From contig NZ_AUIA01000017.1 in assembly GCF_000423465.1 (NCBI RefSeq), positions 1 through 64,000 on the forward strand: a stretch of 64,000 nucleotides of DNA, written 5' to 3'. A model generated the notes under the pieces. That model was not told the origin of the DNA, made no database searches, and worked only from the letters and a program-made list of their open reading frames with translations. Shown piece by piece: positions 23,607 to 40,664 of the stretch (position 1 is the first letter of the stretch; every line of letters starts with the position of its first letter). The stretch is from Propionicicella superfundia DSM 22317. GTDB taxonomy: Bacteria > Actinomycetota > Actinomycetes > Propionibacteriales > Propionibacteriaceae. The position numbers and the translations under genes are program-made.

Positions 23607-23609
23607 TGG

Positions 23610-23741
23610 TCCGGGGGAGCGGCGCCGTGAGCGTGAACCGGACTGGCCCCCACCAACCGCACACAGGTCCGGGGGTCCGGAGGAACGGCGCCGTGAGCGT
23701 GGACGGGACTGGCCCCCGCCGAGCCTGCGAGGCGGGTGGTT
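23610..23741 (+). repeat. 66-bp tandem repeat
   Basis: Two consecutive units (23610 and 23676) begin TCCGGRGGARCGGCGCCGTG and share GACTGGCCCCC at the same offset. A partial third match (AACGGCGCCGT) lies near 23744. Then CGACCCGGAC is repeated at about 23781-23800. The whole gap 23069-23945 is non-coding, repeat-dense DNA between convergent genes. Confidence 0.7.
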
Positions 23742-23816
23742 GCGAACGGCGCCGTCCCCCGGACCCCAGGACCACAGGACCGACCCGGACCGACCCGGAC
23801 CGAACAGGACCACCCA

Positions 23817-23880
23817 ACGCCGAACGCTCCCAAACCGCCGGATTCTGCGCGAATTCCGGCGGTTTGGGAGCGTTCGGCGG
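23817..23880. repeat. 64-bp palindromic repeat, copy A (near-perfect hairpin)
   Basis: The arms 23818-23842 and 23855-23879 are perfectly complementary over 25 bp, beginning CGCCGAACGCTCCCAAA. The stem continues inward with one bulge to a 5-nt loop. It lies between the convergent esterase and SDR genes and could act as a bidirectional terminator. It belongs to a four-member family. Confidence 0.9.
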
Positions 23881-23945
23881 GTCGAGCGCGGGGCCCGGGC
23901 CGACCCGAACCGAACCGGGCCACAGGAACGAGCCAGACCCGACCG

Positions 23946-24836
23946 TCAGCGACCCGTCACGTAGGTCGCCGCAGCGACGAGATCGCCATGGACATGGACG
24001 AAGCCGCTGTCGACGAGCACCGACCCGACGATGCGCTGGCTCCCGAGGATGTCGGAGGCGAACTCACCCATCACCGCCCTGAGAGCGAAGGCCGGCGTCG
24101 GCACCAGCGCCGGCCGGTGCAACGCCGCGGCCAGCGCCCCGGCGACATCCCGCTGCCGAGCCGGTTCCGGCCCGACGGCGTTGACAGGACCCACGATCCG
24201 CGGACGCTCGATCAGGTGGATGATCGCCGCGACCTCGTCGGCGAGCGTGATCCACGGCCACCACTGGTCGCCCGTGCCCATCGGCCCCAGGAGCCCGAGC
24301 CGGCCGAGACGGACGAGCGGGGCGGCCGCGCCTCCCCCCGGGGCGAGGACGATGCCGGTTCGCAGATAGGCCACGGACGCTCCGGCGTCGACCGCCGGGG
24401 CGGCGGAGCGCTCCCAGTCCGTCACGACCTCGGCCAGGAACCCCCGGCCGCGGGCGCTGACCTCGTCGAGCGGCTCGTCCCCGCGGTCGCCGTAGTAGCC
24501 CACCGCGCTCGCCTGCACCAGGCGCACCGGATGGTCCGCGGCCGCGACGGCCTCGGCGAGCGTCCGGGTCGCCGTCACCCGCGACGCCCGGATGACCTCC
24601 TTGTACTCGGCCGTCCAGCGACGGTCGCCGATCCCCGCGCCCGCGAGGTTCACCACCGCATCCACCCCTGAGAGGTGGGCGGGACTGAGCGGCGTCCCGG
24701 GCTCCCAGCGAAGGTCGTCACGATCCACAGGTGCGCGGCGGAGGAGGCGCCGGGCGACATGCCCGCGAGTACGCAACTCGCGACACAGCGCCGTCCCGAT
24801 CAGGCCCGAAGATCCGGCGACGAGAACGTTCGTCAT
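23946..24836 (-). CDS. TIGR01777-family SDR epimerase (YfcH-like)
   Basis: 296 aa. The N-terminal VLVAGSSGLIGTALCREL is the GxxGxxG NAD(P)-binding motif, and the family signature follows in VVNLAGAGIGDRRWTAEYKE, SAVGYYGDRGDEPLDE and TGIVLAPGGG. The C-terminal DUF1731 part contains VPTPAFALRAVMGEFASDILGSQR. The biochemical role of this family is not settled. TACGAT ends exactly 6 nt before the ATG, so it is probably leaderless. It is convergent with the glycan operon across the repeat-rich gap. Confidence 0.9.
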   Translation of the reverse strand: MTNVLVAGSSGLIGTALCRELRTRGHVARRLLRRAPVDRDDLRWEPGTPLSPAHLSGVDAVVNLAGAGIGDRRWTAEYKEVIRASRVTATRTLAEAVAAADHPVRLVQASAVGYYGDRGDEPLDEVSARGRGFLAEVVTDWERSAAPAVDAGASVAYLRTGIVLAPGGGAAAPLVRLGRLGLLGPMGTGDQWWPWITLADEVAAIIHLIERPRIVGPVNAVGPEPARQRDVAGALAAALHRPALVPTPAFALRAVMGEFASDILGSQRIVGSVLVDSGFVHVHGDLVAAATYVTGR

Positions 24837-24903
24837 GCCCGCATCGTAGGAAAGACGGCCCCCGGTCTCCAGAGCGACCGCCGGGCGCGCGGGCGACGGC
24901 CGA

Positions 24904-26631
24904 TCAGTGCCGCAGCACAGCCACCGAGAGAGGGCCCACCTCGAGCTCCGTCGTCCCGGTCGTCTCGTCCACGACGAGGTCCACCCGACCGAACCGGGCG
25001 ACGATCTCGCCTCCCACAGGCACAGACACCGCGGACGGACCGGACGTCAGGACGACCGTGAGCGGCCCTCGCTCCATCCGGAACCACCCGTCGCCTGCCT
25101 CGGCGTCGACCACCTGCTCACAGGCCCCGTCACCGAACGTCTCGCGGCGGAGAGCGATCAGCGTCCGGTACCACTCCCACAGTTCGCGGTGTTCCGGCAC
25201 GCGGAGGTCGCTCCAGTCCAGCTTGGAGCGCTCGAACGTCGCCCGATCCTGGGGGTCGGGGACGTCGCCACCCGGCACGCGAGCCCCCCAGTCGAACGCG
25301 GCGAACTCCTGCCGACGTCCCTCCGACACCGCCCGGCCCAACTCGGGCTCGTGGTCGGTGAAGTACTGGAAAGGCCGCGGCGAACCCCATTCCTGGCCCT
25401 GGAACAGCAAAGGCGTTCCGGGATTGACGAGCAGCACGGCCGCCTGGCCGGCCAGGGCGCCGGGAGCGAGCGCGGCCGCAGGCCTGTCCCCCGCCGCGCG
25501 GTTGCCGACCTGGTCGTGGTTCTCCGAGCACGCGACGAGGCGGCGCCGATCGACATCCTCCGGCAGCGGCTCGCCCCAGGGACCGCCGTGGTACGGCGAG
25601 TATCGACCGTCCCACCAGAACCCCTTCTCGACCACCGTCACGAGGGGCTCCGAGCCACCGAAGTCCACGTAGTACCCGAAGCGCTCACCGGTGTAGTAGG
25701 CGTGCAGCGCGTGGTGGAAGTCGTCGGACCAGATCCCGTCCAGCCCGTCCCCGCCCTCGGCGGTCGGCGTGATCAGCCGCACCTCGTTCGTGTCCGTCTC
25801 GCCGATGATGCGCAACGGACGTCCCAGACGGTCGGCCAGCGACCGCGTCTCGTCGCTCAACTGCGCGAGGAACCGCTTCTCCGAACCGTCGGCGAGCGTC
25901 TGGATCGCGTCCAGCCGGAGCGCGTCCACGTGGAAGTCGCGGAACCACCCGAGCGCGTTGTCGATGAGGTATCGGCGGACGCCCTCGTTGCCCTCCTGGT
26001 CGAGGTTGACCGCCCACCCCCACGGAGTGTGATGCGCGTCGGTGAAGTACGGGCCGAACTGCGAGAGATAGTTGCCCGCCGGCCCGAGATGGTTGTACAC
26101 GACGTCGAGGACGACGCCCAGCCCGTGCCCGTGCGCCGCGTCGACGAACCGCTGCAGCGCCGCCGGGCCCCCGTAGGCGTCATGGACGGCGTACAGGTCG
26201 ACCCCGTCGTACCCCCAGCCCCGGTCGCCGGGGAACGCCGCCACGGGCATCACCTCGACGAGGCCGATCCCCAGCTCGGCGAGGACGGGCAGTCGCTCGA
26301 TCGCGGCATCCAACGTCCCCCGCGGGGTGAACGTGCCGACATGGAGCTCGTAGATCACCTGTCCGAGAGCGTCCGCCCCGGCCCAGGCCGCGTCGCCCCA
26401 GGGGTGGGCGCCGACGTCGAACGCCCGCGTCGGCCCGTGGACGCCGTGCGGCTGCCAGCGCGACCGGGGGTCGGGACGTCCCGGGCCACCGTCCACCGAC
26501 AGCAGATAGTCCAGGCCGGGCCACACCTCGCCCCGCCAGTACCCCCCGTCGCCGCGGGTCAGCGGCTCGACGGCGTCGTTGATCAGCAGGTCCACCGATC
26601 CCGCGGCGGGAGCCCACACGGACAGCTCCAC
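24904..26631 (-). CDS. treZ: Malto-oligosyltrehalose trehalohydrolase TreZ
   Basis: 575 aa. It starts at GTG 26631 (VELSVWAPAAG), chosen because AGGAGG lies 6 nt upstream and because the GTG is 1 bp after the treY stop; the longer frame overlaps treY. An N-terminal beta-sandwich precedes the GH13 barrel: VVLDVVYNHLGP, DALRLDAIQTL (nucleophile Asp), IIGETD (acid Glu) and SENHDQVGN. It releases trehalose from maltooligosyl-trehalose made by TreY. A debranching enzyme (treX/glgX) is not adjacent. Confidence 0.95.
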   Translation of the reverse strand: MELSVWAPAAGSVDLLINDAVEPLTRGDGGYWRGEVWPGLDYLLSVDGGPGRPDPRSRWQPHGVHGPTRAFDVGAHPWGDAAWAGADALGQVIYELHVGTFTPRGTLDAAIERLPVLAELGIGLVEVMPVAAFPGDRGWGYDGVDLYAVHDAYGGPAALQRFVDAAHGHGLGVVLDVVYNHLGPAGNYLSQFGPYFTDAHHTPWGWAVNLDQEGNEGVRRYLIDNALGWFRDFHVDALRLDAIQTLADGSEKRFLAQLSDETRSLADRLGRPLRIIGETDTNEVRLITPTAEGGDGLDGIWSDDFHHALHAYYTGERFGYYVDFGGSEPLVTVVEKGFWWDGRYSPYHGGPWGEPLPEDVDRRRLVACSENHDQVGNRAAGDRPAAALAPGALAGQAAVLLVNPGTPLLFQGQEWGSPRPFQYFTDHEPELGRAVSEGRRQEFAAFDWGARVPGGDVPDPQDRATFERSKLDWSDLRVPEHRELWEWYRTLIALRRETFGDGACEQVVDAEAGDGWFRMERGPLTVVLTSGPSAVSVPVGGEIVARFGRVDLVVDETTGTTELEVGPLSVAVLRH

Positions 26632-26632
26632 G

Positions 26633-29128
26633 TCACGCCTCCTCGAGCCGCTCGAACACCGCACTGGGATACGGGCCGAGCACGTCGGCCAGCCGAACCA
26701 GCCCCCCGCTCACCGTGAGCCCGGTGAAGATGTCGGTCCAGCGCCCCTCGGGCAGGGCCACGGTGTGCTCCTGGAATCCGCCGAGTGCGGTCAACGCGCC
26801 CGAGAGCCGGGTGGCGAGGACGACGACCTCCGCGCCGCGTTCGTACGCGATGAGATGCCCCGTGGTCGTCGCGAGCGGGCGGTAGCACGCGGCCTCGCCG
26901 ACGAACGCCTGCGGCCGGCGGCGACGCAGGTCGCAGATCCGGTGCGTGATGAACAGTTTCTCCTCGGCGAGGGTGGACGGCGGCCGCTCCTGGACCGACG
27001 TCAGCAGCCGCGACAGGGCGGCGACGTCCACGGGACGCCGGTTGTCGGGGTCGACGAGATGCGTCTGCGTCGTCTCGGTCCCCTGGTAGATGTCGCCGAC
27101 GCCGAGGCAGGTGAGCTGGATGATCTTGCGCGACAGGACCGCGGTGCGGTTGGCGTCGTGGGTGAGTTGCGCCCAGCGTCCGAACGCGTCCATGACGTGG
27201 TCGTCGGTGAGCAGCGCGTCGATGAGTTCGAGGACCTGGTCCTCGGCCTCGGTGTCGGGACTCGTCCAGGTCGTCCACGTCTTCATCTCGCGCGACGCCT
27301 TCAGCATGTACTGCTTCAAGCGGTCGGCCGAGATCGGCCCCTCGTCGGTCCAGGTGCCCGCCAGGGTCTGCCACAGCAGGTTCTCCGTCGCCCCGTCGAG
27401 CCCCGCCACCAGCGGATGGACCTTCTCCAGCAGCGTCAGCCAGTCGACCGAGAACTGGCTGATGACGTTGATGCGGGCCCGGACGTCCTCGCCGCGCTTG
27501 GTGTCGTGCGTGGTTCCCACGGTCATCGTCGCCGGCCAGCGCTGCGACATCTCCGAACACCAGGCGTGGAACTGGTCGGGGCCGTAGCTCCACGCGGTCG
27601 GGGAGCCGCCGACCTCGTTCAGGCTGACCAGGGGCGTCCAGCGGTAGAACGCCGTGTCCTCGACCCCCTTGGCCTCGACCGCTCCGCAGACCTGCTGGAA
27701 TCTCACGACCAGTTCGTCCCGCAGGTCCTGCTGGCGGTGGCCGGCGCTGCCGACCTCGACCCCGGTGACCAGGTCGACGACGACGTCGAGCGTGTCGAGC
27801 AGGTCCTCGTCGAGACGCCGGCGGGCGATCTCGGCGGCGCGCTCGATGGCCGCGCGCGAGTCGGGGTGAACGTCCTGGCCCGGGACGATGTACGCGCGGT
27901 AACGGTCGAACGCGACGATGAGCTCGATGAGGCACCGGCGCAGCCAGCGGAAGGTGTGGTCGCGCAGGTAGATGTCGTCCTTGACGATCTCCTGGGCGAG
28001 GGACGCGAGCCGGTGCACCTCGGCCGACAGGGACGTCGCGATGATCTCTCGCTTGGACGCGTCCACGACGTCGTGCAACTGCGACGGCTGGGACTCGCCC
28101 AGGCCCTCGGCGGCCATCGTGAGGTTCACGCCGCCGGCGCTGTCGACCTGGAGCGCGCCGATGCGCCAGGACGCGTCGTACCCGGTCGTGCCGGACACCG
28201 GCCAGTCGTCGGGCAGCATCTCGCCGCCGCTCAGGATCTTCTCGGCCACGATCCAGGCGCCGCCGGTCGCGATGGACAGCCGCCGCAGGTACCCGCGGGG
28301 ATCGGCCAGCCCGTCGGGATGGTCGATCCGGAACCCGTCGATGTAGCCGGCGTGGTAGAGCTCGAGCAGCAGGGCGTGGGTCGCCTCGAACACCTCCGGG
28401 TCCTCGACCCGGATCGCCGCGAGCGTGTCCACGTCGAAGAAGCGGCGGTAGTTGAGTTCCTCGTCGGCGACCTTCCAGTACGCCAGCCGGTAGAACTGCT
28501 GCTGGACGCACTCGGCCAGCGGCAGCGTCTCGGTCCCGGCGCGGACGGGGAACACACGGTCGTAGTACTCCAGGACGCCCTGTTCGCCCTCGTCCTCGAA
28601 GCCCGGGATGACCTTCCAGGTGAGAGAGATCTGGTCCGTGGCGATCACCGTCCCGATCCGTGCGCCGAGGACCGGCATGAGCAGTCCGTCGCTCGTGTCG
28701 ATGCCGTCGAACCAGTTCGCGTACGGCGACTGCGGCCCCTCCTTCAGGACCGACCAGAGCGCCCTGTTGGCGTACAGCGGTGTGGGGAACGACATGTGGT
28801 TCGGGACGACGTCCACGATGACGCCCATGTCCCGCTCGTGCGCGGCGCGGGCGAGCGCCTCGAATCCCTCCCGGCCGCCGAGTGCCTCCGAGATGCGGCT
28901 GTGGTCGACCACGTCGTACCCGTGGGTCGAGCCGGGCGAGGCCGCGAGGATCGGTGACAGGTACAGGTCGGTGATCCCGAGCCGCTGCAGGTAGTCGAGC
29001 CGGTCGGCGGCCTGCGCGAACGTGAGGTTCGGGCCGAGCTGCAGCCGGTACGTCGTGACCGGAACCCGCCGCCCCGGGGAGGGGAGATGCGGCCGGAGAC
29101 GGTCGGCATGCTCGGTTTCGGATGGCAT
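26633..29128 (-). CDS. treY: Malto-oligosyltrehalose synthase TreY
   Basis: 831 aa, near the family's usual length. The N-terminal TYRLQLGPNLTFAQAADRLDYLQRLGITDLYLSP is diagnostic. GH13 active-site segments follow in VDVVPNHM, GFRIDHPDGLADP (nucleophile Asp), VAEKIL (acid Glu) and TTHDTKRGED. It converts the reducing end of maltodextrin or glycogen chains to an alpha,alpha-1,1 linkage. It is followed by treZ after 1 bp, giving a treY-treZ operon for trehalose as an osmo- or desiccation protectant. The start ATG lacks a strong SD. Confidence 0.95.
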   Translation of the reverse strand: MPSETEHADRLRPHLPSPGRRVPVTTYRLQLGPNLTFAQAADRLDYLQRLGITDLYLSPILAASPGSTHGYDVVDHSRISEALGGREGFEALARAAHERDMGVIVDVVPNHMSFPTPLYANRALWSVLKEGPQSPYANWFDGIDTSDGLLMPVLGARIGTVIATDQISLTWKVIPGFEDEGEQGVLEYYDRVFPVRAGTETLPLAECVQQQFYRLAYWKVADEELNYRRFFDVDTLAAIRVEDPEVFEATHALLLELYHAGYIDGFRIDHPDGLADPRGYLRRLSIATGGAWIVAEKILSGGEMLPDDWPVSGTTGYDASWRIGALQVDSAGGVNLTMAAEGLGESQPSQLHDVVDASKREIIATSLSAEVHRLASLAQEIVKDDIYLRDHTFRWLRRCLIELIVAFDRYRAYIVPGQDVHPDSRAAIERAAEIARRRLDEDLLDTLDVVVDLVTGVEVGSAGHRQQDLRDELVVRFQQVCGAVEAKGVEDTAFYRWTPLVSLNEVGGSPTAWSYGPDQFHAWCSEMSQRWPATMTVGTTHDTKRGEDVRARINVISQFSVDWLTLLEKVHPLVAGLDGATENLLWQTLAGTWTDEGPISADRLKQYMLKASREMKTWTTWTSPDTEAEDQVLELIDALLTDDHVMDAFGRWAQLTHDANRTAVLSRKIIQLTCLGVGDIYQGTETTQTHLVDPDNRRPVDVAALSRLLTSVQERPPSTLAEEKLFITHRICDLRRRRPQAFVGEAACYRPLATTTGHLIAYERGAEVVVLATRLSGALTALGGFQEHTVALPEGRWTDIFTGLTVSGGLVRLADVLGPYPSAVFERLEEA

Positions 29129-29233
29129 CGATCACGACCTCTCGCGCTGCCGGCAGATCCCCGCCAGAGTAACAAAGCGCCGCCGAATGCCCCGCCCGGA
29201 GCCCGAATCCCGCCGCGAAAACGACGACCGGGC

Positions 29234-29297
29234 TCGCCGAACGCTCCCAAACCCACGGAAATCGGAGGAAATCCGGCGGAAGCAGAGCGTTCGGCGA
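29234..29297. repeat. 64-bp palindromic repeat, copy B
   Basis: The ends TCGCCGAACGCTC and GAGCGTTCGGCGA are perfectly complementary (13 bp) and the total length is 64 bp. It lies between the end of the substrate-binding-protein gene and the start of treY, so it may terminate the ABC operon. Confidence 0.85.
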
Positions 29298-29319
29298 AGG
29301 ATCCGGCCGTCGTGGCGTC

Positions 29320-30387
29320 TCAGAGGTCGACCTGCACCACCAGGTTGTCCACGAACTGCTCGGTGTCGATGCTGCTGGACAGGTAGCCGACGTCCTTCAG
29401 CTTGCCGACGAAGAAGAGCGCATCGTCCCGCGCTTGGGAGTCCGAGGACGCGGAGGACGCGTGGTTCTTGTAGTGGTAGCTCTTCAGCAACGTGACGAGG
29501 AGTTCCTGGTCCTCGGACGGGACGTATGCCTCGTGCTGGCTGCTGTCGGTGACGATCCTGGCCGTCTCCTCGGGGTTCTCGGCGATCCACTCGATCGCCT
29601 TGTACCAGCCGCGCAGCAGCGCGGCGACGGTCTCGGGCTTGTCGTTGACCGCCGCGCCCGAGGCGTACAGGAAGCAGCAGAACCTGCCCGCGAACAGGGG
29701 ATGCGAGCTGATGTCGACCAACACGCGGAACCCGTTGTTCTCCGCGATGGTCGCCTGCGGATCCCAGGCGGCGATGGCGTCGACCTCGCCCCGTTTCGCG
29801 ACCTCCTCCAGCGTGGTCAGGTCGTAGGGCGCGAACGTCACCTGGCCCGCGGACTCCGACGGGTCGATCCCCGCATCCCCCAGGGCCACCGACGCGACGG
29901 CCCACGGAGTGCCGCCGATCTCGTCCACGCCGATCTTCTTGCCCTTCAGCCCCGCCACCGAGGTGATCGGCGAGTCGCCGGGGACGAGCAGCTTGATGCA
30001 GCCGGTGTGCATGCCGCCGATGATCTTGAGGTCCAGCCCCTGCTCGACCGCGGGGAAGAACTGGAAATCTCCGTTGGCCACGAGGTACTGGCCACTGGCC
30101 AGGCCGTCCTTCTGCTGCTGGAAGGTGCCGCTCACCAACTCGACGTCGATGCCCTGCTCGGCCCAGAAGCCCTTTTCCTGGGCGATGTAGCTCGGAGAGC
30201 CGCACAGGCCCCCGCCCAGCGCCTGCACCTGCGTCTTGCCCAGCGAGGCGGCGCCGGACGTCCCCCCGGTCGCCCCGCTCGTGGCGGGCGCACCGCACGC
30301 CGACAGCAGCGACGGCACGCCGATGGCCAGGGCCGCCGTCCCCCCGAGGAGGAAGAACCTCCTCCGATCGAGATTGATCTGACTCAT
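29320..30387 (-). CDS. NitT/TauT-type ABC transporter substrate-binding lipoprotein
   Basis: 355 aa. The N terminus has a Tat motif (DRRRFFLLGG) and a lipobox LLSAC, so it is exported and membrane-anchored. The mature part is an NMT1/SsuA-like binding protein (YIAQEKGFWAEQGIDVELV, IGVDEIGGTPWAVASVAL, VDAIAAWDPQATIAENNG). Candidate substrates are alkanesulfonates, nitrate, taurine or thiamine precursors, and the sequence does not decide. It is the last gene of the importer operon, 206 bp after the ATPase gene, with its own SD (AGGAGA). The 64-bp repeat follows its stop. Confidence 0.9.
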   Translation of the reverse strand: MSQINLDRRRFFLLGGTAALAIGVPSLLSACGAPATSGATGGTSGAASLGKTQVQALGGGLCGSPSYIAQEKGFWAEQGIDVELVSGTFQQQKDGLASGQYLVANGDFQFFPAVEQGLDLKIIGGMHTGCIKLLVPGDSPITSVAGLKGKKIGVDEIGGTPWAVASVALGDAGIDPSESAGQVTFAPYDLTTLEEVAKRGEVDAIAAWDPQATIAENNGFRVLVDISSHPLFAGRFCCFLYASGAAVNDKPETVAALLRGWYKAIEWIAENPEETARIVTDSSQHEAYVPSEDQELLVTLLKSYHYKNHASSASSDSQARDDALFFVGKLKDVGYLSSSIDTEQFVDNLVVQVDL

Positions 30388-30593
30388 TTCGTTTCTCCTG
30401 ACAGTGGTTCACGACTCGATGCGGCCGACGCCACGACGTTTTGCGGGACGTTCGGCCGGTGTTCTGGCCCGGATTGGCCGGTCGCCGCGGACTCAGCCCC
30501 GCGAGGCGGCGGGGGCGGCGGGTGTTCTTCCGGCGACGTGGCGGGACGGACATCGCATCTGCCTGGCACCTCCCTCGGGAATCGTCCGGCGGC

Positions 30594-31379
30594 TCATCGG
30601 GATGCCCGTTCCGGGTGGGCGCCCGGCCTCGAACCGGCCAGGTTCAGCTTGTCGAGGATGCGCGAACGCAGGCGGAGGAACCCGTCGTCGTCGCGGGCAC
30701 GGGGGCGGTCGAGCGAGACGTCGATGATCTCGCTGATCCTGCCCGGGCGGGGCGTCATGACGACGATGCGATCGCTCAGGTAGATGGCCTCGTCGACGTC
30801 GTGGGTCACCAGGATCATGGTCGAGCCCAGGCGCTGCCACAGGTCCAGGAGCTTGTCCTGGACCTCGACGCGGGTGAACGAGTCGAGTGCCCCCATCGGC
30901 TCGTCGAGCAGCAGCACCCGCGGCTCGTTGATCAGCGCGCGGGCGATCGCCACGCGCTGCGCCATGCCGCCGGAGAGCTGGTGCGGGTAGGCCTCGGCGA
31001 AACCGTCCAGCCCGACCAGTTCGACGTACTCCGGCACACGGTGCTGCTGCTGCCGGTACACGCCTCGGGCCTTGAGGCCGGTGGCGATGTTCTGCGCCAC
31101 GGTCGCCCAGGGGAACAACGCCCCCTGCTGGAAGACGTACCCCCGCTCGTGGCTGGGGCCGGAGATCTGCTCGCCGGCCACGTGCAGCGTGCCGCCCTGC
31201 GGGACGTCGAGACCGGCGATCAGGCGCAGCAGCGTGGTCTTGCCGCACCCCGACGGGCCGATGAGGCTGACGAACTCCCCCTGCGCGACCTGCAGGGACA
31301 CGTCCTGCAGCGCGTGGGTCTCGTCCTTGCCGTTGCCGTAGACGCGCGTGACGTGAGCGATGTCGACCAGCGGGCTCAT
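30594..31379 (-). CDS. NitT/TauT-type ABC transporter ATPase
   Basis: 261 aa. Walker A GPSGCGKTT, Q-loop VFQQGALFPW, signature LSGGMAQRVAIARAL, Walker B VLLLDEPMGALD and H-loop VTHDVDEAIYLSDRI match the SsuB/TauB/NrtD group. It energises import by the adjacent permease, with which it overlaps (ATGA). The C-terminal 20 residues are an unconserved tail. Confidence 0.93.
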   Translation of the reverse strand: MSPLVDIAHVTRVYGNGKDETHALQDVSLQVAQGEFVSLIGPSGCGKTTLLRLIAGLDVPQGGTLHVAGEQISGPSHERGYVFQQGALFPWATVAQNIATGLKARGVYRQQQHRVPEYVELVGLDGFAEAYPHQLSGGMAQRVAIARALINEPRVLLLDEPMGALDSFTRVEVQDKLLDLWQRLGSTMILVTHDVDEAIYLSDRIVVMTPRPGRISEIIDVSLDRPRARDDDGFLRLRSRILDKLNLAGSRPGAHPERASR

Positions 31380-32479: not shown

Positions 32480-32912
32480 GAGCGGTCTTCTTCACGGCTG
32501 GTCGTGGCGAGCGGATCGTCAGCGGCGAGCGGCGGGGACGCTGCCGGTGCGTCGACCGGACGGCTCGGGCGGGGACCGGTGAGGTCCGCCGCGTGCGCAC
32601 GGTGTCAGCCCGCGAAGGCGGGTGCGGGGATGGCCCGAGGAGGGCGCGGGACGTCCGGTGCGCGGAGCCCGGTCAGGAGGAGCGGGTCGGAGGAATCAAC
32701 AACCCATACACATGGACGGCATACACATGGACCGCAGGCACCGGAGGGCCGAAGATGCGGGACGTCCATGCGTGGTCATGCGCGCACACTAACACGTCCC
32801 TCCCTCGGCCGAGATCGTGCGTCGGAAATCGCGGGCGAACGGTCCGGTGCGCGGTGCCGAGGTGGGCGTTTCGTCAATGCTCGCGGGAAGGGGGCCCTCG
32901 GGCGCGGGCCGG
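32480..32912. promoter_or_regulatory. Control region upstream of the importer operon, with a 15-bp tandem repeat
   Basis: No gene is visible in these 430 bp. CATACACATGGAC occurs twice head to tail (32705-32717 and 32720-32732), a 15-bp period that suggests two operator half-sites on one face of the helix, about 225 bp ahead of the permease start. A short hairpin CCCGCGAAGGCGGG lies near 32609-32622. No TPP or SAM riboswitch core could be recognised. Confidence 0.4.
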
Positions 32913-33395
32913 CTAGCGGAGGATGATCCGCAGGCCGCGCTCGAAGGACGCGTCCAGATCCGGGTCGGGCGCGATGAGGCCCAGGTCGGCCGCCTGTCGG
33001 TGGAGCTGGGATGCCTGCGTGTGTCCCATCACGTAGATCAGCAGCGTGCGGGCCACGTCCGCCGACGTGAACGCGGCGAACCGGCTCTCCAGCCCGGTCA
33101 GGTCGAACCGGAACGCCGACGCGGTCGCGACGACCTCTGCCCCGTCGCGGACGGCGAGCATGGCGTCGCGCAGCCGCCGGCAGGAGGCCACCAGGTCCTC
33201 GTCGATCCGCACCCCGGCGACGATCCGGTCGGCCATGAGCCCGAGCAGGGTCTGCTTGTCGCGGACGTGGTGATACAGCGCGCTGGGCTGGACGCCGAGT
33301 TCCCCCGCCAGCCGCCGCATCGAGAAGAACTCCAGCCCCCAGGCGTCCAGGACCCGCATCGCCGCCTGGACGACGTCGTCGAGACTGTTGGCCAT
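32913..33395 (-). CDS. bioQ: TetR-family regulator, BioQ-like (biotin uptake repressor)
   Basis: 160 aa. The N-terminal TetR HTH (FSMRRLAGELGVQPSALYHHVRDKQTLL) is followed by a short TetR_C ligand domain. It is transcribed divergently from bioY-bioM-bioN, and two copies of TGAAC-N3-RTTCA lie between them. BioQ regulators of corynebacteria and mycobacteria are TetR proteins that bind this kind of 13-bp palindrome (TGAAC-N3-GTTAC in Corynebacterium) and control biotin genes, so the assignment is good but inferred. TAGGCT ends 6 nt before the ATG, implying a leaderless mRNA. Confidence 0.8.
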   Translation of the reverse strand: MANSLDDVVQAAMRVLDAWGLEFFSMRRLAGELGVQPSALYHHVRDKQTLLGLMADRIVAGVRIDEDLVASCRRLRDAMLAVRDGAEVVATASAFRFDLTGLESRFAAFTSADVARTLLIYVMGHTQASQLHRQAADLGLIAPDPDLDASFERGLRIILR

Positions 33396-33416
33396 TTCGG
33401 CAGCCTATCGGTAGCC

Positions 33417-33445
33417 TGAACACCGTTCACCTGAACACCATTCAG
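33417..33445. promoter_or_regulatory. Two BioQ-type operators in the bioQ-bioY intergenic region
   Basis: TGAACACCGTTCA (33417-33429) is a perfect 5-3-5 palindrome and TGAACACCATTCA (33432-33444) is an imperfect copy 15 bp on, within CTGAACACCATTCAG. They sit just downstream of a possible rightward promoter (TTGGCC-18-TAGCCT, 33388-33417) and upstream of the leftward -10, so bound repressor could silence both directions. Confidence 0.75.
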
Positions 33446-33486
33446 TCGCCATCGTCCCGCGTCACCCGGGCCGTCCCAGGAGAGTC

Positions 33487-34101
33487 ATGACCGATCCCGT
33501 CGCCACCGATGTCATCGCGGAGCCGGCCGCCCGCACCCGCGCCCGCCTCACCACCACCGATCTCGCACTCGTCGCCGCCTTCGCCGCGCTCATCGGTGCG
33601 CTGGCCTACCTGGGCGCCATCCCCGTCGGCGGTGCCGGCGTGCCGATCACCCTGCAGACCCTCGGTGTCGCACTCGCCGGCGCGATCCTCGGCCCGCTGC
33701 GCGGCTTCCTCGCCGTGAGCCTCTACCTCGGACTGGGCGCGATCGGCCTGCCGGTGTTCGCCGAGCACTCCTCGGGGCTCGGTGTCTTCACCGGCGTGAG
33801 CGCCGGCTACCTCATCTCGTTCCCGATCGCGGCGGCCCTCATCGGCTTCCTGGTGAAATACGTGGTGGGCCCGCGTCGTATCCGGGCGCTCCTCGTCCTG
33901 CCCGCCGTCGCGGCCGGCAGCATCCTGGTGGTCCACCCCCTCGGCATCGCCGGCATGATGATCCACCAGGGCGTCCCGTTCGAGGTCGCCCTCTCGTGGG
34001 ACATCCCGTTCTGGCTGGGCGACGTCATCAAGATCACGCTCGTGTCGCTGATCGCCGCCGAGGTGCACCGGGCCTTCCCGAAGCTGCTCGCCCGCTCGTG
34101 A
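33487..34101 (+). CDS. bioY: BioY, biotin-binding S component of an ECF transporter
   Basis: 204 aa with six hydrophobic segments. GALAYLGAIPVGGAGVPITLQTLGVALAGAILGPLRGFLAVSLYLGLGAIGLPVF is the BioY signature region, read here in pieces: the VPITLQTLG loop and the LGxxGLPVF motif. It captures biotin at the membrane and works with BioM and BioN. It has SD AGGAGAG and overlaps bioM by GTGA. Confidence 0.95.
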   Translation: MTDPVATDVIAEPAARTRARLTTTDLALVAAFAALIGALAYLGAIPVGGAGVPITLQTLGVALAGAILGPLRGFLAVSLYLGLGAIGLPVFAEHSSGLGVFTGVSAGYLISFPIAAALIGFLVKYVVGPRRIRALLVLPAVAAGSILVVHPLGIAGMMIHQGVPFEVALSWDIPFWLGDVIKITLVSLIAAEVHRAFPKLLARS

Positions 34102-34802
34102 CGGCGACCATCGAACTGCAGGACGCCGCCGTCCGGGTCCCCGACGACGACCTGCTGATCCTCGAACCGACCTCGTTGCGGCTCACCGAGCGCCGCATCG
34201 GGGTGATCGGCGGCAACGGGTCGGGCAAGTCCACGCTGGTCCGGCTGTTCAACGGACTCACCACGGCGACGACCGGCCGGGTCCTCGTCGACGGCCTCGA
34301 CCCCGCGAAGGATCCGGCGGCCGTGCGACGCCGCGTCGGGTTCTGCTTCACCGATCCCGCCGCTCAGCTCATCATGCCGACCTGCGTCGAGGACGTGGAG
34401 CTGTCCCTCCGGCGCGGACTTCCCGACCCGGCCCGCCGGAGAGCGGCGGCGCTCGACATCCTGGCCGAGTTCGGCCTCGCCGACCGCGCCCGGACCAGCG
34501 TCCATGCCCTCTCCGGCGGCCAGCGGCAGCTCCTGGCCCTGGCCGGCGTCCTGGCCACCCGGCCCGCGGTCGTCGTCGCCGACGAGCCCACCACCCTGCT
34601 CGACCTGGCGAACTCGCGCCGGGTGGCACAAAGACTGTTCGAGCTGGAGCCGCAACTCGTCCTGGTCAGCCACGACCTCGACCTCGTCCGGCGCTGCGAC
34701 CGGGTGCTGGTCGTCGATCACGCCCGGGTGGTCTTCGACGGCCCGGCCGAGGCCGCCGTCGAGCACTACACGGAACTGGCCCTCGCCGAGGCCGCCTCGT
34801 GA
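34098..34802 (+). CDS. bioM: BioM/CbiO-type ECF transporter ATPase
   Basis: 234 aa. Walker A GGNGSGKST, Q-loop region FTDPAAQLIMPT (typical of ECF A-components), signature ALSGGQRQLLALAGVL, Walker B VVVADEPTTLLD and H-loop LVSHDLDLVRRC. The GTG start overlaps the bioY stop, and its stop overlaps the bioN start (GTGA). It powers biotin import. Confidence 0.95.
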   Translation: MTATIELQDAAVRVPDDDLLILEPTSLRLTERRIGVIGGNGSGKSTLVRLFNGLTTATTGRVLVDGLDPAKDPAAVRRRVGFCFTDPAAQLIMPTCVEDVELSLRRGLPDPARRRAAALDILAEFGLADRARTSVHALSGGQRQLLALAGVLATRPAVVVADEPTTLLDLANSRRVAQRLFELEPQLVLVSHDLDLVRRCDRVLVVDHARVVFDGPAEAAVEHYTELALAEAAS

Positions 34803-35401
34803 CGTCCCCGCTCGTCGGCCAGTACCAACCCGGCGACACACTCCTGCACCGGATGCCCGTGTGGATCAAGATCGCCGGGCTGGGGATCTGGAGCATCGCG
34901 ATCGTCAGCATCCGGAACCTGCCGTGGGCTCTCGCGTGCCTCCTTTTCGCGCTCGTCCTCACGGGTGTCGCGCGGCTGCGGTGGCGATCCGCGGCGCGCC
35001 AGGTGCGCGGGGTGCTCATCGTCGCCGTCGCCGTCGCCGGGTTCCAGTGGTGGCTGTTCGGGGCGGCACGCGCCGTCGAATCGCTGGCCGACCTGGTGAG
35101 CCTGGCCCTCCTCGCGCTGGTCGTGATGACCACGACCGAGGTGAACGCCCTGCTCGACGCCGTGACCCGCGGCCTTCGCCGTGTGCCGTTCGTCGACGCC
35201 GACCGGGTCGCGCTGCTGTTCGCGCTGTCCATGCACGCGCTGCCCGAGAGCGTCGAGCTGGCCCAGGAGACCCGGGACGCCGTCGCCGCCCGCGGGCTGG
35301 GGCGCAACCCGCGCCACTACCTCGCCCCCTACGTGGTGCGGGTCGTCGCCCGCGCCCAGCAGACCGGGGACGCCCTCGCCGCCCGCGGCCTCGGGGACTG
35401 A
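34799..35401 (+). CDS. bioN: BioN/EcfT-type transmembrane component
   Basis: 200 aa with four to five hydrophobic segments and the two Ala-Arg-Gly coupling motifs of EcfT proteins near the C terminus (AVAARGLGRNP and ALAARGLGD), which contact the ATPase. It completes the BioYMN transporter. No terminator hairpin was found after it; tRNA-Ser(GCT) follows on the opposite strand 164 bp on. Confidence 0.93.
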   Translation: MTSPLVGQYQPGDTLLHRMPVWIKIAGLGIWSIAIVSIRNLPWALACLLFALVLTGVARLRWRSAARQVRGVLIVAVAVAGFQWWLFGAARAVESLADLVSLALLALVVMTTTEVNALLDAVTRGLRRVPFVDADRVALLFALSMHALPESVELAQETRDAVAARGLGRNPRHYLAPYVVRVVARAQQTGDALAARGLGD

Positions 35402-35565
35402 CTGCCCCTGGCCGGGTCCACTTCGAAGCCTCGTGGTGGTCCGCTGCACGGCGCGAGCCTTGTCCTCGCCGATCTGGGAGTGAGGAACCTGAACCGGTTC
35501 GCCAGAACCAACCCTCGCCCGGAATCGCCTTCCCCGGGTGACGACGCGCAAGACGCGCGTCCAAC

Positions 35566-35659
35566 TGGCGGAGGTGGCGGGATTTGAACCCGCGAGAGGG
35601 TTGAAGCCCTCAACCCGCTTAGCAGGCGGGCGCCATAGACCGGACTAGGCGACACCTCC
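35566..35659 (-). tRNA. tRNA-Ser, anticodon GCT
   Basis: 94 nt including CCA. Acceptor GGAGGTG/CACCTCC with discriminator G, anticodon loop CTGCTAAG with GCT, long variable arm (GGGTTGAGGGCTTCAACCCTC) and T loop GGTTCAAATCC. TAGCAT just upstream on the minus strand is a possible -10. Confidence 0.95.
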
Positions 35660-35996
35660 CGGCCGCGCCAATGCTACAGGTGGGTCGGCGCGATGGGCAA
35701 AGCGCTTTCCCGAGCGGCCCATCGGACGCGCACAGACGTCGCCGACCCGCACCTCGCGGTGAGGAGGGCACCGCGTCGCAAAGGACCTGCCGCACCGTCG
35801 TGGAGGGGCCGGTCGCGTCGTCCGCTGACCGCGCGCGATCGATGCCGAAGAGCCGCCGAATGCGCACGCTCACAGGAAACTCCTAGTCAGGCGGCGGACC
35901 CCGAAATGGGGGGCGGACGCACACCGCGTTGCCCGGATAGTTACCATTGGGGAGGTTGATAACCTGACGGGTTACTAGCGCGACCCCAGGAGGGGC
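35660..35996. promoter_or_regulatory. Intergenic control region ahead of the LCP gene
   Basis: The distal 230 bp show nothing recognisable. The 60 bp before the gene are AT-rich for this genome and hold the dyad AGGTTGATAACCT (35952-35964), flanked by TAGTTACC (35938-35945) and its near-complement GGTTACTA (35970-35977). These are plausible regulator sites; no consensus promoter is obvious. Confidence 0.35.
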
Positions 35997-37628
35997 ATGA
36001 GCAGTTGGACGCCGGACGACTCCGAGCCACGGCGGATCCTCGACGACGGCGACGAGCCGCCCGCTGCCGCCTCCGGGTCTCCGCAACGGGCCGCTGTGCC
36101 GGATCTCCGCACCGGTTTCGCCGCCTCTGCCGGCTGGACCGTCCTGGCGGCCGTCGTCCCGCCCGTCGGGCTCATCCGGTCGGGCCGCAAGGTCCTCGGC
36201 TGGTCGCTGCTCGGCGTGATGGCCGGGGCGGTCGCCGGTCTCGGATACGTCCTGATCCGCTACCGGGCGGACGCCGTGTCCGCAGTCGCGTCGTACATCA
36301 GTGTGAACACCCTCGCCTTCGCCGGGGCCGCGATCGCCGTCGGGGGCCTTCTGTGGGTCATGGTCGTCGGCTACACCCACCTGCGGACGCGTCCGGCCAA
36401 TCCCAGCCTCGGGCAGCGCGCCGCCGGCGCCATCCTCGTCGGGCTCCTCTCCTTCGTCGTCGCCGCCCCTGCCGCCGTGGCCGTCCGGTACATCTACGAC
36501 ACCGCGTCCCTCCTCGGCACGGTGTTCACCAATACCAAGTCGGCGACGCGCTCGACGACGAAGCCGACGACCACCAGCGCCGCCCCGTTCAACGGGCGGC
36601 TCAACGTCCTCCTTCTCGGTGGCGACAACGGATTCGACCGCGACGAGTCGCTGGGCGCCCGCACCGACACCGTCATCGTCGCGAGCATCGACACCGTGAC
36701 GGGCGACACCGTCCTCATCTCGCTGCCACGCAACACGGCGAAGATGCCGTTCCCGACGTCGTCGCCGCTGTACGAGTACTACCCGGAGGGCTTCTACGAC
36801 GGGTACGACCCCGACAACGCCGAGTACATGCTCAACGCGATGTACGACAATGTCCCGGCCACCGTCGGCACCGACATCCTCGGAGAGACCGACAACGTCG
36901 GCGCCGACATCATGAAGATCTCCGTCGGATATGCGCTCGGGCTGGACATCGACTACTACGCGATGATCAACCTCGACGGGTTCAAGGACCTCATCGACGC
37001 CCTCGGCGGGATCACCGTCAACATCAACTACCGGATCCCGAAGGGCGGCAGCACCGACAAGGGCATCCCGCCCGAGGAATGGCTGGAGCCCGGCCCGAAC
37101 CAGCACCTCGGCGGCACCGACGCGCTGTGGTACGCGCGGGGTCGCTACGGGCTGGACGACTACAGCCGCATGGAGCGCCAGCGCTGCGTGATCTCCGCCG
37201 TCGTCCGGCAGGCCGATCCGGTCAACGTCCTCACCCGGTACGAGGCGATCACGAAAGCCGGCAAGCAGATCATCCGCACGGACATCCAATCCGACATCCT
37301 GCCCGACATCCTCACCGTCGCGACCAAGGTGAAGGAGAAGAACAACCTCAAGTCGATCGTGTTCAAGCACGGCGTCGACGGCTTCTCCAGCCGCTACCCC
37401 GACTGGGACATGGTCCGTACCCGGGTGGCGACGGCGCTCACGCAGGCGTCTGCGACCTCCACCGCGCAGGCCTCGCCCACCTCGTCCAGCTCGGCACCGG
37501 GAACGAGTACCACCGGCACTTCGACACCCACGGCCACGAAGACGACGAGTTCCGCCGGCACGGCCAGCGCGTCGACCCAGGCCGCCGAGGACACCGCTGA
37601 CGCCTGCGCGTACAACCCGAAGACGTAA
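35997..37628 (+). CDS. LytR-CpsA-Psr (LCP) family cell-wall glycopolymer ligase
   Basis: 543 aa. Three to four hydrophobic segments occupy residues 45-170. After a Thr-rich linker, the extracellular LCP domain (about 200-460) has LNVLLLGGDNG, ARTDTVIVASID (conserved Arg and Asp), LISLPRNTAKM, INLDGFKDLIDALGGITVNI and the RYGLDDYSRMERQR arginine cluster that grips the polyprenyl pyrophosphate. The C terminus is a 60-residue Ser/Thr tail. LCP enzymes attach teichoic-acid-like or capsular polymers to peptidoglycan, so it may finish the glycan made by the 12.9-23.1 kb locus. SD AGGAGG. Confidence 0.93.
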   Translation: MSSWTPDDSEPRRILDDGDEPPAAASGSPQRAAVPDLRTGFAASAGWTVLAAVVPPVGLIRSGRKVLGWSLLGVMAGAVAGLGYVLIRYRADAVSAVASYISVNTLAFAGAAIAVGGLLWVMVVGYTHLRTRPANPSLGQRAAGAILVGLLSFVVAAPAAVAVRYIYDTASLLGTVFTNTKSATRSTTKPTTTSAAPFNGRLNVLLLGGDNGFDRDESLGARTDTVIVASIDTVTGDTVLISLPRNTAKMPFPTSSPLYEYYPEGFYDGYDPDNAEYMLNAMYDNVPATVGTDILGETDNVGADIMKISVGYALGLDIDYYAMINLDGFKDLIDALGGITVNINYRIPKGGSTDKGIPPEEWLEPGPNQHLGGTDALWYARGRYGLDDYSRMERQRCVISAVVRQADPVNVLTRYEAITKAGKQIIRTDIQSDILPDILTVATKVKEKNNLKSIVFKHGVDGFSSRYPDWDMVRTRVATALTQASATSTAQASPTSSSSAPGTSTTGTSTPTATKTTSSAGTASASTQAAEDTADACAYNPKT

Positions 37629-37636
37629 CGTCTCGG

Positions 37637-38095
37637 TCAGCCCTTGTTCGTGCCGTCCGTCAGCCCGTACCCGCGGTTCGCGTCGAGGTGCTCGACGATG
37701 GACGCCTTGAGCCTCGCCAGTTCGACGCCCTCGACCTGACCGACGAGGTGGATGACGGCCCCGTCACGCCGGTGCAGCGTGATTCGCCGCCCCGACGGCG
37801 ACTGGCTGACCCTGGTGATGTCCTCCCATCGGCCGCGCTGCGGACCTCCCGGGCCGAGCACGAGGAACCCCACGTCGTCGATCTCGACGCGAACCCGGCT
37901 GCGGCGTACCGCCCCGATCGCCGCGAGCAGCAGCAGGCCGGCCACGACGAAGCAGACGATCCCGGCGATGCGCAGCACGATTCCCCACGAGACGGCGTCG
38001 GCCGCCACGTACGCGACCACCCCGACGATCGTTGCGGCCGCGACAATGGCCAACGCCCGGATCGGTGGGCGAGGCCGGAGCGTTATGACGTCCAC
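37637..38095 (-). CDS. Small membrane protein with PH-like C-terminal domain
   Basis: 152 aa. Two hydrophobic helices (residues 12-35 and 40-62) precede a soluble domain with DDVGFLVLGPGG, GRWEDITRVSQ, RRITLHRRDG and ALxxxIVEHLD-like ends, resembling bacterial PH (bPH2) domains. Function unknown. I chose GTG 38095 because CAGAAT ends exactly 6 nt upstream, suggesting leaderless translation; the frame is open further upstream without support. It is convergent with the LCP gene, 8 bp away. Confidence 0.75.
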   Translation of the reverse strand: MDVITLRPRPPIRALAIVAAATIVGVVAYVAADAVSWGIVLRIAGIVCFVVAGLLLLAAIGAVRRSRVRVEIDDVGFLVLGPGGPQRGRWEDITRVSQSPSGRRITLHRRDGAVIHLVGQVEGVELARLKASIVEHLDANRGYGLTDGTNKG

Positions 38096-38190
38096 GGCTT
38101 CATTCTGCCCGGACAGCCCCCGGGTACGGCCACCATCGGCCTCGTGGCGCTCGGCGAGTCCCCGCCGATTCCGAGCCCTGGGGCCCCACG

Positions 38191-38254
38191 TCGCCGAACG
38201 CTCCGGAACTGGCGGAAATCCGCCGGAATCCGACAGCTTCGGAGCGCTCGGTGA
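38191..38254. repeat. 64-bp palindromic repeat, copy C
   Basis: It begins TCGCCGAACGCTCCGGAACT and ends CGGAGCGCTCGGTGA. The arms pair with two mismatches over the outer 14 bp. Unlike the other copies it lies between divergent genes, so a terminator role does not explain it. Confidence 0.8.
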
Positions 38255-38392
38255 GCGTTGAGATCCGCCCCCGGGACTACCGCCGGCCCCCCTGCGGGAA
38301 CACGTCGCCGCGGCACGGGGACGCTCACGGACACCGCCGCCGGCGACCACAGCGGGACGCGTCCGCCGACGTCCGGGCGAAAGGCTGGAGCC

Positions 38393-39202
38393 ATGACTGG
38401 ATCCGACTCCCTGGAGGCGCGCGGCCTCACGAAGACCTACGACACCGGAACCGTCCACACCCGTGCTCTCGCCGGGGTGGACCTCACCCTCTCCCGCGGC
38501 GAGTCCCTCGCGGTGATGGGGCCGTCCGGATCGGGGAAGACCACTCTCCTGCACGTCCTGGCAGGCATCCTGGCGCCGACCTCGGGCGAGGTCCGGTGGC
38601 GGGGGCGGGATCTTTCGGGCCTCTCCGAGCGCGAACGCACGAGGCTGCGTCGGTCCGAGTTCGGGTTCGTGTTCCAGTCGGGACAGCTCCTTCCGGAGCT
38701 TCCGGCCGACGAGAACGCCGCCCTGCCGCTGCTGCTGGCGGGGACGTCACGAGCCGAGGCCACCGCACGGGCGCGGGAGTGGCTGGGACGGCTGGGGCTC
38801 TCCGGCATGGAGTCGCGGCGTCCCGGCGAACTGTCGGGCGGGCAGGCCCAGCGCGTCGCCATCGCCCGCGCCCTCGCGAGCGACCCCGGCGTCATCTTCG
38901 CCGACGAGCCCACCGGCGCCCTCGACCGGCAGACGGGCTGGGACATGATGCGGCTCCTCACCGCGGCCGCGTCCGAGCAGGGGGCCGCTCTCGTCGTCGT
39001 CACCCACGACGCGGAGGTCGCCCGGTGGTGCTCACGCACCGTCCATATGCGTGACGGCGTGATCGCTCGCGAGGCGCGCCAGATGCCGTCTCCGCCGCCG
39101 ACCGCACTCGGAAGCACCGTCTCCACCGGCGCCGGACCCGCGACCCCCGGCCGTGCACCGTTCCTCCCGCCCGCGTACGATCCCATGGCGGTGAGCCGGT
39201 GA
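38393..39202 (+). CDS. LolD/MacB-type ABC exporter ATPase
   Basis: 269 aa. Walker A GPSGSGKTT, Q-loop FVFQSGQLLPEL, signature LSGGQAQRVAIARAL, Walker B VIFADEPTGALD and H-loop VTHDAEVA, as in ATPases that pair with FtsX-type permeases. The C-terminal 45 residues are Pro-rich. ATG 38393 is preceded by AAGGCT and 6 nt (GGAGCC), so either a leaderless start or a short-spaced SD. It overlaps the permease gene by GTGA. Confidence 0.9.
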   Translation: MTGSDSLEARGLTKTYDTGTVHTRALAGVDLTLSRGESLAVMGPSGSGKTTLLHVLAGILAPTSGEVRWRGRDLSGLSERERTRLRRSEFGFVFQSGQLLPELPADENAALPLLLAGTSRAEATARAREWLGRLGLSGMESRRPGELSGGQAQRVAIARALASDPGVIFADEPTGALDRQTGWDMMRLLTAAASEQGAALVVVTHDAEVARWCSRTVHMRDGVIAREARQMPSPPPTALGSTVSTGAGPATPGRAPFLPPAYDPMAVSR

Positions 39203-40545
39203 GCACCCTGCGCCTGTGGTGGCTGCTGCGTCGCCGCCGTCAGGTGGACACCTCCGACCCGGCCCGGCTGACCGGCGTCCTCGCCGTCATCGCGTTCGCC
39301 GTGACGACGGCGATGGCGCTCGTCGTCGGGGGCGGCTTCCTCGCGTTCTGGCGCCGCGCCGACGCCGGGACGTCGGTCGGCGACTACGACGGCGGCTCGT
39401 ACGTGTTCCTCGCCGGCTTCGCCGTCCTGCTGCTGCTGGTTCCGCTCACGACGCTCGGAGCGGCAGCCGCCCGGCTCGCCGTCGCGCGGCGGGACGCCCG
39501 GCTCGCCGCGCTTCGCCTCGCGGGCGGCACGACGGCGCAGGTGTCCGCCCTCACGGTGTTGGACGCCACGCTCCAGTCGGTGCTCGGCGGCCTCCTCGGC
39601 ATCGCCGGCTATGTCGCCCTCCTCCCGGTCGTCGCGCACCTGAACTTCCAGGGGAGGACGTTCGACATCGCCGAGTTGTGGGTCGGGGTCCCGGTGCTGC
39701 TGGGCGCGTTCGCCGGTGTGGTCGTCGTCGCGCTCGTGTCGGCGCTCAGCAGCCTCGGCCGGGTGACGATCACCCCGCTGGGCGTCGCGACCCGGGTCAC
39801 GCCGCCTGCGCTGCGGGCCGTCCGCGTCCTGTCGGTGGTCGTCGCGTTCGTCGCCCTGCTCGCGGCCAATGCCCTCTCGGGTCAGGCCGGGATGCTCGTG
39901 GTCGTCCTCCTGATGGCGGTCATCGCCGCCGGCATGGCGACCCTCAACATCGTGGGACCGTTCATCCTCGGCATCGTCGGCCGCATCGCCGCCGGCACGT
40001 CCAGGAATGTCGCGACCCTGCTTGCCGGACGCCGCATCGCCGACGACCCGCGGACCGCGTGGCGCAGCGTCGGCGGCGTGGCCCTGGCGACGTTCATCGC
40101 CGGCATCACCGCGGTCGCCGGTCTCGTGTCGCCCGACAGCCTCGACGAGGGACAGCGCATCTTCGCGACCGATCTCAGCACGGGCGGGCTGCTGGCGCTC
40201 GCCATCGCGGGGGTCCTCGCCGCCGTCTCGACCGGCGTCCTGCAGGCGGGACGTGTCATCGACCAGCGTCAGGAATATCGCTCGCTCGTCCTCGCCGGGA
40301 CCGATCGCCGGACGCTGGATCGGGCACGCCTTCGGGAGACCCTCATCCCGCTCGTGGCGGGCATGAGCACCTCCACCGGCTTCATGCTGCTGTTCAGCGT
40401 CCCCATCATCGGCGCGGGCGCCTTCGCGCAGCCGATGGTCCTGCTGCGCTTCCTGATCGGCGTGCTCGGCGCCGGGGCGCTGGTGCTGCTGGGCGCCGCC
40501 GCGTCCGGACTCATCGCGCGCCGCATGGTCGCCGTCCCGGCCTGA
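39199..40545 (+). CDS. FtsX-type ABC exporter permease
   Basis: 448 aa with about eight to ten hydrophobic segments. An LAALRLAGGTTAQVSALTVLD coupling region (residues 95-115) and a second copy (YRSLVLAGTDRRTLDRARLRE) mark two FtsX repeats, as in the BceB/MacB-like exporters. No large extracellular MacB domain is seen. With the overlapping ATPase it likely forms an exporter of lipids or antimicrobials; the substrate is unknown. Confidence 0.85.
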   Translation: MSTLRLWWLLRRRRQVDTSDPARLTGVLAVIAFAVTTAMALVVGGGFLAFWRRADAGTSVGDYDGGSYVFLAGFAVLLLLVPLTTLGAAAARLAVARRDARLAALRLAGGTTAQVSALTVLDATLQSVLGGLLGIAGYVALLPVVAHLNFQGRTFDIAELWVGVPVLLGAFAGVVVVALVSALSSLGRVTITPLGVATRVTPPALRAVRVLSVVVAFVALLAANALSGQAGMLVVVLLMAVIAAGMATLNIVGPFILGIVGRIAAGTSRNVATLLAGRRIADDPRTAWRSVGGVALATFIAGITAVAGLVSPDSLDEGQRIFATDLSTGGLLALAIAGVLAAVSTGVLQAGRVIDQRQEYRSLVLAGTDRRTLDRARLRETLIPLVAGMSTSTGFMLLFSVPIIGAGAFAQPMVLLRFLIGVLGAGALVLLGAAASGLIARRMVAVPA

Positions 40546-40600
40546 CCGCGCTCCCGCCCCCGTTCCCCCTGACCGAACGCTCTCTTTCTCCCGCCGCCCC

Positions 40601-40664
40601 TCGCCGAGCGCTCCGGAACTGCCGGAATTCGGCTCGTTTTCGGGAGTTTGGGAGCGTTCGGCGG
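40601..40664. repeat. 64-bp palindromic repeat, copy D
   Basis: It begins TCGCCGAGCGCTCCGGAACT and ends TTTGGGAGCGTTCGGCGG. The outer 14 bp pair with one mismatch. It lies between the exporter permease and the Gfo/Idh/MocA gene, 22 bp before the latter's start, close enough to overlap its promoter. Confidence 0.85.

Follow-up and report, generated by a model that had tools for sequence, protein, structure and literature searches.

A family of 62-bp intergenic hairpin elements in Propionicicella superfundia with possible REP-like dispersal

What scatters short palindromes between the genes of an actinobacterium, and do they serve the genes beside which they lie? The question is raised by the first 64 kb of contig C8 (NZ_AUIA01000017.1) of Propionicicella superfundia DSM 22317, hereafter the window, which carries four related palindromes in intergenic positions (Table 1). 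A preliminary description took them for repeats of repetitive extragenic palindromic (REP) or miniature inverted-repeat transposable element (MITE) type, moved perhaps by a REP-associated tyrosine transposase (RAYT). Here they are compared with all other copies in the genome and with related genomes. With a probability of roughly 0.5, we read the family as lineage-private, non-coding hairpin elements, REP-like in behaviour and without a RAYT, that would be dispersed by a trans-acting factor and tolerated or used at gene ends.

All four palindromes are present, although conservation extends over 62 bp rather than the 64 bp first proposed, which includes one surplus base per side. The 12-bp ends ascribed to every copy are exact in copies 1 and 2 and variant in copy 3, which ends in GAGCGCTCGGTG, and copy 4, which starts with CGCCGAGCGCTC. 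A weight-matrix scan of the whole window returned these four copies and none further; single 12-mers with up to two mismatches were near chance there (37 versus 29.9 expected; 14/100 shuffles had as many), and Rfam 15 covariance models at gathering score matched two tRNAs only in the window, leaving the elements without a match. In the genome (G000, a 3.62-Mb draft of 23 contigs, numbered C, 97.97% complete), the exact 12-bp end pair with a spacer of 30-52 bp allowed occurs in 38 copies, 38/38 of which have a 38-bp spacer, and the end pair with up to three mismatches occurs in 62 copies; reversed controls gave 0 in both cases, which puts the paired ends far above chance. The possibility that only four copies exist, raised at the outset, is thus ruled out. 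A sequence-only profile built from 35 copies gave 136 matches, counting both strands, among 150 candidates scored, in agreement with the 62-bp length, and an ungapped weight-matrix pass over stretches drawn from the genome gave about 64 full copies, all 62 bp; further decayed copies may exist, since the profile search scored 150 candidates.

The family appears, from the genomes searched, to be lineage-private, as no copy was found outside this genome. The element with up to two mismatches was not found in 56 relatives, none of the same genus, and at E ≤ 1e-4 the profile matched none of 390 further genomes from the order, each covered by a small number of scored candidates. Among 146 other genomes of the family, weak and mostly partial matches in 15 (E 3.3e-4 to 8.8e-3) were taken as chance. 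The family and order genome sets overlap, and these profile searches used stricter filters and few candidates per genome; the genome of P. superfundia was still positive in both. The best named relatives of one window protein, Propioniciclava sinopodophylli (64%) and two Propionibacterium MAGs (62%), fit a placement of the organism in Propionibacteriaceae. The exact end pair was also absent from the wider genome collection and from viral contigs, in searches from which very near records may be missing. A plasmid or virus origin was rejected, six plasmid records giving partial matches (E 0.2-0.8) and viral contigs lacking the exact ends. In the open-licence literature, no earlier account of a family like this one was found for Propionibacteriaceae.

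The oriented consensus, CGCCGARCGCTCCCRAACTGCCGGAAAnCnGCCGGAATCCGGCAGTTnCGGAGCGYTCGGCG, consists of two ~25-bp arms (consensus CGCCGARCGCTCCCRAACTGCCGGA) flanking a 12-nt centre, at the edges of which AA faces AA on one strand. Statistics refer to 54 copies, from which near-duplicates (≥58/62 identical) and copies scoring <40 had been removed, and which are on average 77% identical in pairwise comparison (68% over the inner 38 bp). Positions 26-27 pair with 37-36 in 26/108 cells, compared with 53.0 expected on re-pairing halves, and 0/5000 shuffles were as low; because these positions pair so much less than re-paired halves, the edges of the 12-nt centre are kept unpaired. Positions 28-31 show no such difference (94/216 paired versus 100.8 expected). 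The two halves vary almost independently of each other, and the elements fold with a mean minimum free energy of -40.2 kcal/mol (z -6.8).

Six pairs of copies share at least 60/62 bases. In one of them, C1:903120 and copy 4 at window position 40602, the elements are identical at 61/62 positions and the flanks are unrelated, which shows that the 62 bp can be copied on their own; one such element-only event was observed. Shared sequence extends to 145 bp between C2:98876 and C13:43564, to 109 bp between C2:243455 and C2:247444, and to 256 bp (99.6% identical, including a gene 3' end) between C1:96171 and C2:261566, and the near-identical pairs on C9 and on C5 are tandem neighbours. We note that at C2:261566 (L037) a gene 3' end, the element and 25 bp of the next gene lie as a fragment at a second site.

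Gene contexts were assigned with our own codon-model gene caller and compared with a 400-kb background chosen away from copies. The contexts of the four window copies are mixed, as first described, and genome-wide 27 of 64 copies lie between convergent genes, 29 between tandem genes and 6 between divergent genes, with 2 inside called open reading frames (28, 29, 6 and 1 under an alternative training of the caller); 62/64 are outside called genes, and a few overlap a gene end. Of the background gaps, 15% are convergent, 69% are tandem and 16% are divergent, or 14%, 62% and 24% by intergenic bases. With near-duplicates included, placed copies are therefore in excess between convergent genes (27/62 versus 14% of intergenic bases, P = 1.7e-8) and in deficit between divergent genes (6/62 versus 24%, P = 0.003). 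For tandem copies the median distance is 25 bp to the stop upstream and 102 bp to the start downstream. Once 62 bp are subtracted, the median convergent gap is 61 bp, which matches the 59 bp of background gaps, so the element reads as an added unit. A strand-specific RNA role was rejected, tandem copies being oriented with the genes in 14 cases and opposite to them in 15. Because 27/64 copies are convergent, tandem ones lie near the upstream stop and only 6 are divergent, the earlier statement that a simple terminator role fails was too strong, and a two-way 3'-end hairpin role may apply, although direct tests of it were non-significant. At a larger scale, C1 probably holds the terminus, because GC skew changes sign inside it while dnaA is on C5, and it carries 10/64 copies versus 18.1 expected (P = 0.014).

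The constant length, the open loop edges, the lineage-private distribution and the single element-only copy together argue for a REP-like dispersed hairpin without a RAYT, and gene-end placement suggests that the hairpin is tolerated there or used as a transcript end in both directions. The fixed spacing of the ends, the convergent excess and a look-alike family in another genus, described below, point the same way. A putative trans-acting factor would recognise the arms and the open loop and disperse the 62-bp unit, much as REP hairpins, whose loop edges are unpaired, are recognised by TnpA-REP. Inserted copies would survive chiefly downstream of stop codons, a position in which a symmetric hairpin may terminate or protect the transcripts arriving from either side. 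PMC3733652 reports that RAYT cleavage of a REP is lost once the unpaired loop-edge residues are made to pair. Systems of REPs and REP doublets forming hairpins (REPINs) with their RAYTs, as described in PMC3733652 and PMC3116915, resemble the present family as high-copy intergenic palindromes, mostly in convergent or same-direction gaps, lineage-specific and with unpaired loop-edge residues. However, the REP unit is 20-40 bp rather than 62 bp, neither GTAG nor CGTC stands as a tag at a constant position at the foot of the element, the draft yielded no Y1 transposase, and extra half-modules occur in 31-bp phase. Among the 54 copies, GTAG was near an end in 2 and CGTC within 12 bp of an end on either strand in 20, at no fixed place, and no abutting tetranucleotide was found in more than 5. 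CGTC-tagged REPs, which are said in PMC3733652 to lack a dedicated transposase, are likewise palindromic, intergenic and without a known mover, but the element lacks their fixed tag. The E. coli bacterial interspersed mosaic elements of type 2 (BIME-2), as presented in PMC1525189 and PMC6379681, form arrays of modular short palindromic units behind genes with a possible topology role; the present family is instead dominated by a single 62-bp dyad of presumably unrelated sequence, and AT phasing is what can be seen in it of a BIME-2-type gyrase site, so that gyrase binding would be putative.

A de novo palindrome search in 400-kb samples recovered, from two relatives, families of repeated palindromes that differ in sequence from the element. 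In one of these, G022, which belongs to another genus of the same family, an exact pattern gave one copy and a profile 12 copies of a family, here family E, that are all (12/12) 60 bp long, built as 24 + 12 + 24, and unrelated in sequence to the 62-bp element. The two families are alike in fixed length, in arms (24 bp in family E), in a variable, asymmetric 12-nt centre and in private occurrence, family E being absent from three congeners at E ≤ 1e-5. They differ in that the centre pairs of family E, from the edge inward, are formed in 5, 5, 4, 10, 1 and 0 of 12 copies, so that only the two innermost avoid pairing, and its AT steps (6, 14, 19, 41, 46 and 54) follow no 10-bp grid. Its contexts are 4 convergent, 5 tandem and 1 divergent, with 2 unplaced, and it lies farther from stops, 9/11 copies with a flanking stop being >100 bp from it. 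At one gene end common to four congeners, read from the sequences, G022 has a family-E palindrome, G084 a different long palindrome, and G099 and G067 plain hairpins. No clean empty site was obtained at one G022 locus with two copies, where homology to the congeners is broken beside the element. Another repeat of ~70 bp lies in G022 at about 1318-1387 of L255 and at 17 or more other places among the matches listed.

Several observations weigh against the REP-like reading. Recent copying is mostly segment duplication, because 5/6 near-identical pairs share flanks or sit in tandem. The RAYT link is not supported: RAYT (Y1_Tnp, PF01797) had 0 matches in the 97.97%-complete draft, where the gene may be divergent or missing, and a control search was positive in 5/14 genomes; no mover was identified. 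Judged by covariation, the hairpin is under no strong constraint to form, because pairing in the arms is weakly above chance: positions 13-25 are paired in 521/702 cells versus 506.0 expected (P = 0.047; P = 0.0017 with a within-orientation shuffle), and positions 1-12 show no excess (592/648 versus 593.7). The avoidance of pairing at loop edges may not hold in general, because centre edges partly pair in family E of G022 and only its two innermost pairs avoid pairing. As for use at gene ends, no T-tract stands beside the element (1.37 T per 10 nt on one side and 1.52 on the other), and element-bearing gene ends do not significantly lack native hairpins when gaps are matched (P = 0.30 and 0.16).

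Much of the same evidence could be claimed for a bidirectional terminator family kept for function and spread by segment duplication or gene conversion, with no transposition, which we consider unlikely. The element has one feature of an intrinsic terminator, a stable GC-rich hairpin behind stop codons, and its placement there and between convergent genes, its folding energy and the movement of 5/6 near-identical pairs with their flank or in tandem all favour such a family. Hairpins are moreover in excess at background gene ends of this genome, where 16% of 170 cases and 18% of 147 have z below -2, versus 3% of 61 upstream of starts, and the gene end common to the four congeners holds differing palindromes and hairpins in the same slot. 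However, termination requires neither exact length conservation nor unpaired loop edges, and the missing T-tract, the six divergent copies, native hairpins that are not significantly lacking at element-bearing ends and the >100-bp distance of most family E copies from flanking stops all speak against it. Replacement of native terminators by the element was dropped, as an unmatched difference in mean z (-0.24, n = 62, versus -0.90, n = 170) was lost with matched gaps. The flanks do extend the palindrome (k = 3 inverted matches in 11/54 copies versus 2.7; mean score 3.41 versus 2.84, with 1/500 shuffles as high), but an origin by insertion within a pre-existing terminator loop was also dropped, because outer half-modules supply part of this extension. 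Least probable, and very improbable in our view, is a classical MITE, that is, a cut-and-paste DNA transposon shortened by deletion, with the arms as its terminal repeats. Dispersed copies, terminal inverted repeats of MITE type (the ~25-bp arms) and the element-only event would fit, but target-site duplications are absent at k = 4 to 9 among the 54 copies (k = 3, 2/54 versus 0.6 expected; k = 2, 5/54 versus 2.5), no longer element with these ends was found among 150 candidates scored in the 23-contig draft, one orphan half-site (C7:64529) was seen among the matches listed, and the element consists entirely of arms and a 12-nt centre. The initial assignment to the REP/MITE type therefore stands as to a dispersed intergenic palindrome family with REP-like placement and one clean element-only copying, and not as to classical MITE features.

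A further account treats the element as a double-stranded protein-binding array. The 31-bp half-module, about three helical turns, would be a site for a nucleoid or topology protein (gyrase or nucleoid-associated), the dyad a dimeric site, and copies would lie at gene ends, where transcription-driven supercoiling collects. This is possible but rather doubtful. Extra same-orientation half-sites stand at exactly 31 bp on 11/108 flank sides (z 10.6 over offsets 18-139), with single cases at 20, 32 and 33 bp (66 bp in the same array); offsets of 74 and 96 bp represent complete elements nearby, opposite-orientation half-sites occur in two cases, at 30 and 52 bp, and five 31-bp units make up an array at C2:247444. 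AT-only dinucleotides are almost confined to steps near 6, 16, 26, 36, 46 and 56 (0.2% elsewhere), a 10-bp grid matched by 3/5000 random symmetric placements. The near-independence of the two halves also favours it, another repeat family of this genome (family B, below) is likewise on a helical grid (40/5000), and PMC6379681 gives the E. coli gyrase motif AT/GC-periodic arms and BIME-2 an enrichment in gyrase sites. However, the peaks were chosen from the data and the grid is close to one observation, because all copies descend from one ancestor. The gyrase motif, in that same paper, comes from 130-bp windows with two periodic arms and not from 62 bp periodic through the centre, and plain dyad binding does not predict unpaired loop edges. 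Family E, similar in build, is off such a grid, and DNA wrapping as a general rule was rejected because the grid does not recur there. A DNA uptake signal was rejected too, no half-site of at least 10 bits occurring in the 400 kb of background selected away from copies.

Table 1. Copies of the 62-bp element and an adjoining half-module in the window
Feature	Position	Strand	Remarks
Element copy 1	23818..23879	-	62 bp; convergent gap; 66 bp from stop of minus-strand gene 23946-24728
Element copy 2	29235..29296	+	62 bp; tandem; 23 bp behind stop of minus-strand NMT1-like gene 29320-30387
Element copy 3	38192..38253	+	62 bp; divergent gap; right end variant GGTG
Element copy 4	40602..40663	-	62 bp; tandem; 56 bp behind stop of 39199-40545
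Decayed extra 31-bp half-module	40571..40601	+	In phase, adjoins copy 4; read by eye, below 11-bit threshold

Other repeats accompany the element in this genome. Family B occupies 169 bp at window positions 23389-23557 and has four 23-bp sites (GACCGCCANNTTGYGNGGCATAC) at 0, +52, +94 and +146, the last two inverted; a lone site lies at 23167-23189. Its half-site with up to two mismatches has 97 matches in the genome and 0 in 56 relatives, and at least 28 elements were anchored among the matches listed, 23 with at least three of the four sites in register. Convergent gaps hold 14/27 placed copies, and 1 copy is on the presumed terminus contig C1 (P = 0.0015). Family C is palindromic, about 70-90 bp long, with CGCTACG/GTAGCG-like motifs, at L067 2783-2871, L069 161-249 and L074 3447-3537 and at L086 6520-6589 and L088 14524-14599; by our own reading these two sets of sites are one family. 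Family D is a near-perfect hairpin of ~44 bp in which GGAGGGTTGATGTTGG arms enclose a TAGT/ACTA centre, with three copies in 400 kb (L085 2265-2320, L086 14184-14255 and L094 15274-15331). Tandem repeats of ~60-66 bp are common to window positions 23587-23811 and contig C13 (L074 3591-3875), at about 84-85% identity.

Extended to the family, the REP-like reading would have Propionibacteriaceae harbour a general RAYT-independent class of hairpins, with private families of unrelated sequence in each species, a rigid 24-25/12/24-25 build of fixed length, spread by a putative hairpin-recognising machine and sometimes acting as two-way gene-end signals; we put this forward tentatively, as an extension that is on balance unlikely. 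The rigid 62-bp build, open loop edges, a recent copy of the element alone and a similarly built family in another genus make the question of a hairpin recogniser testable, and the family is natural material for asking whether dispersing repeats provide bacterial genes with two-way ends.

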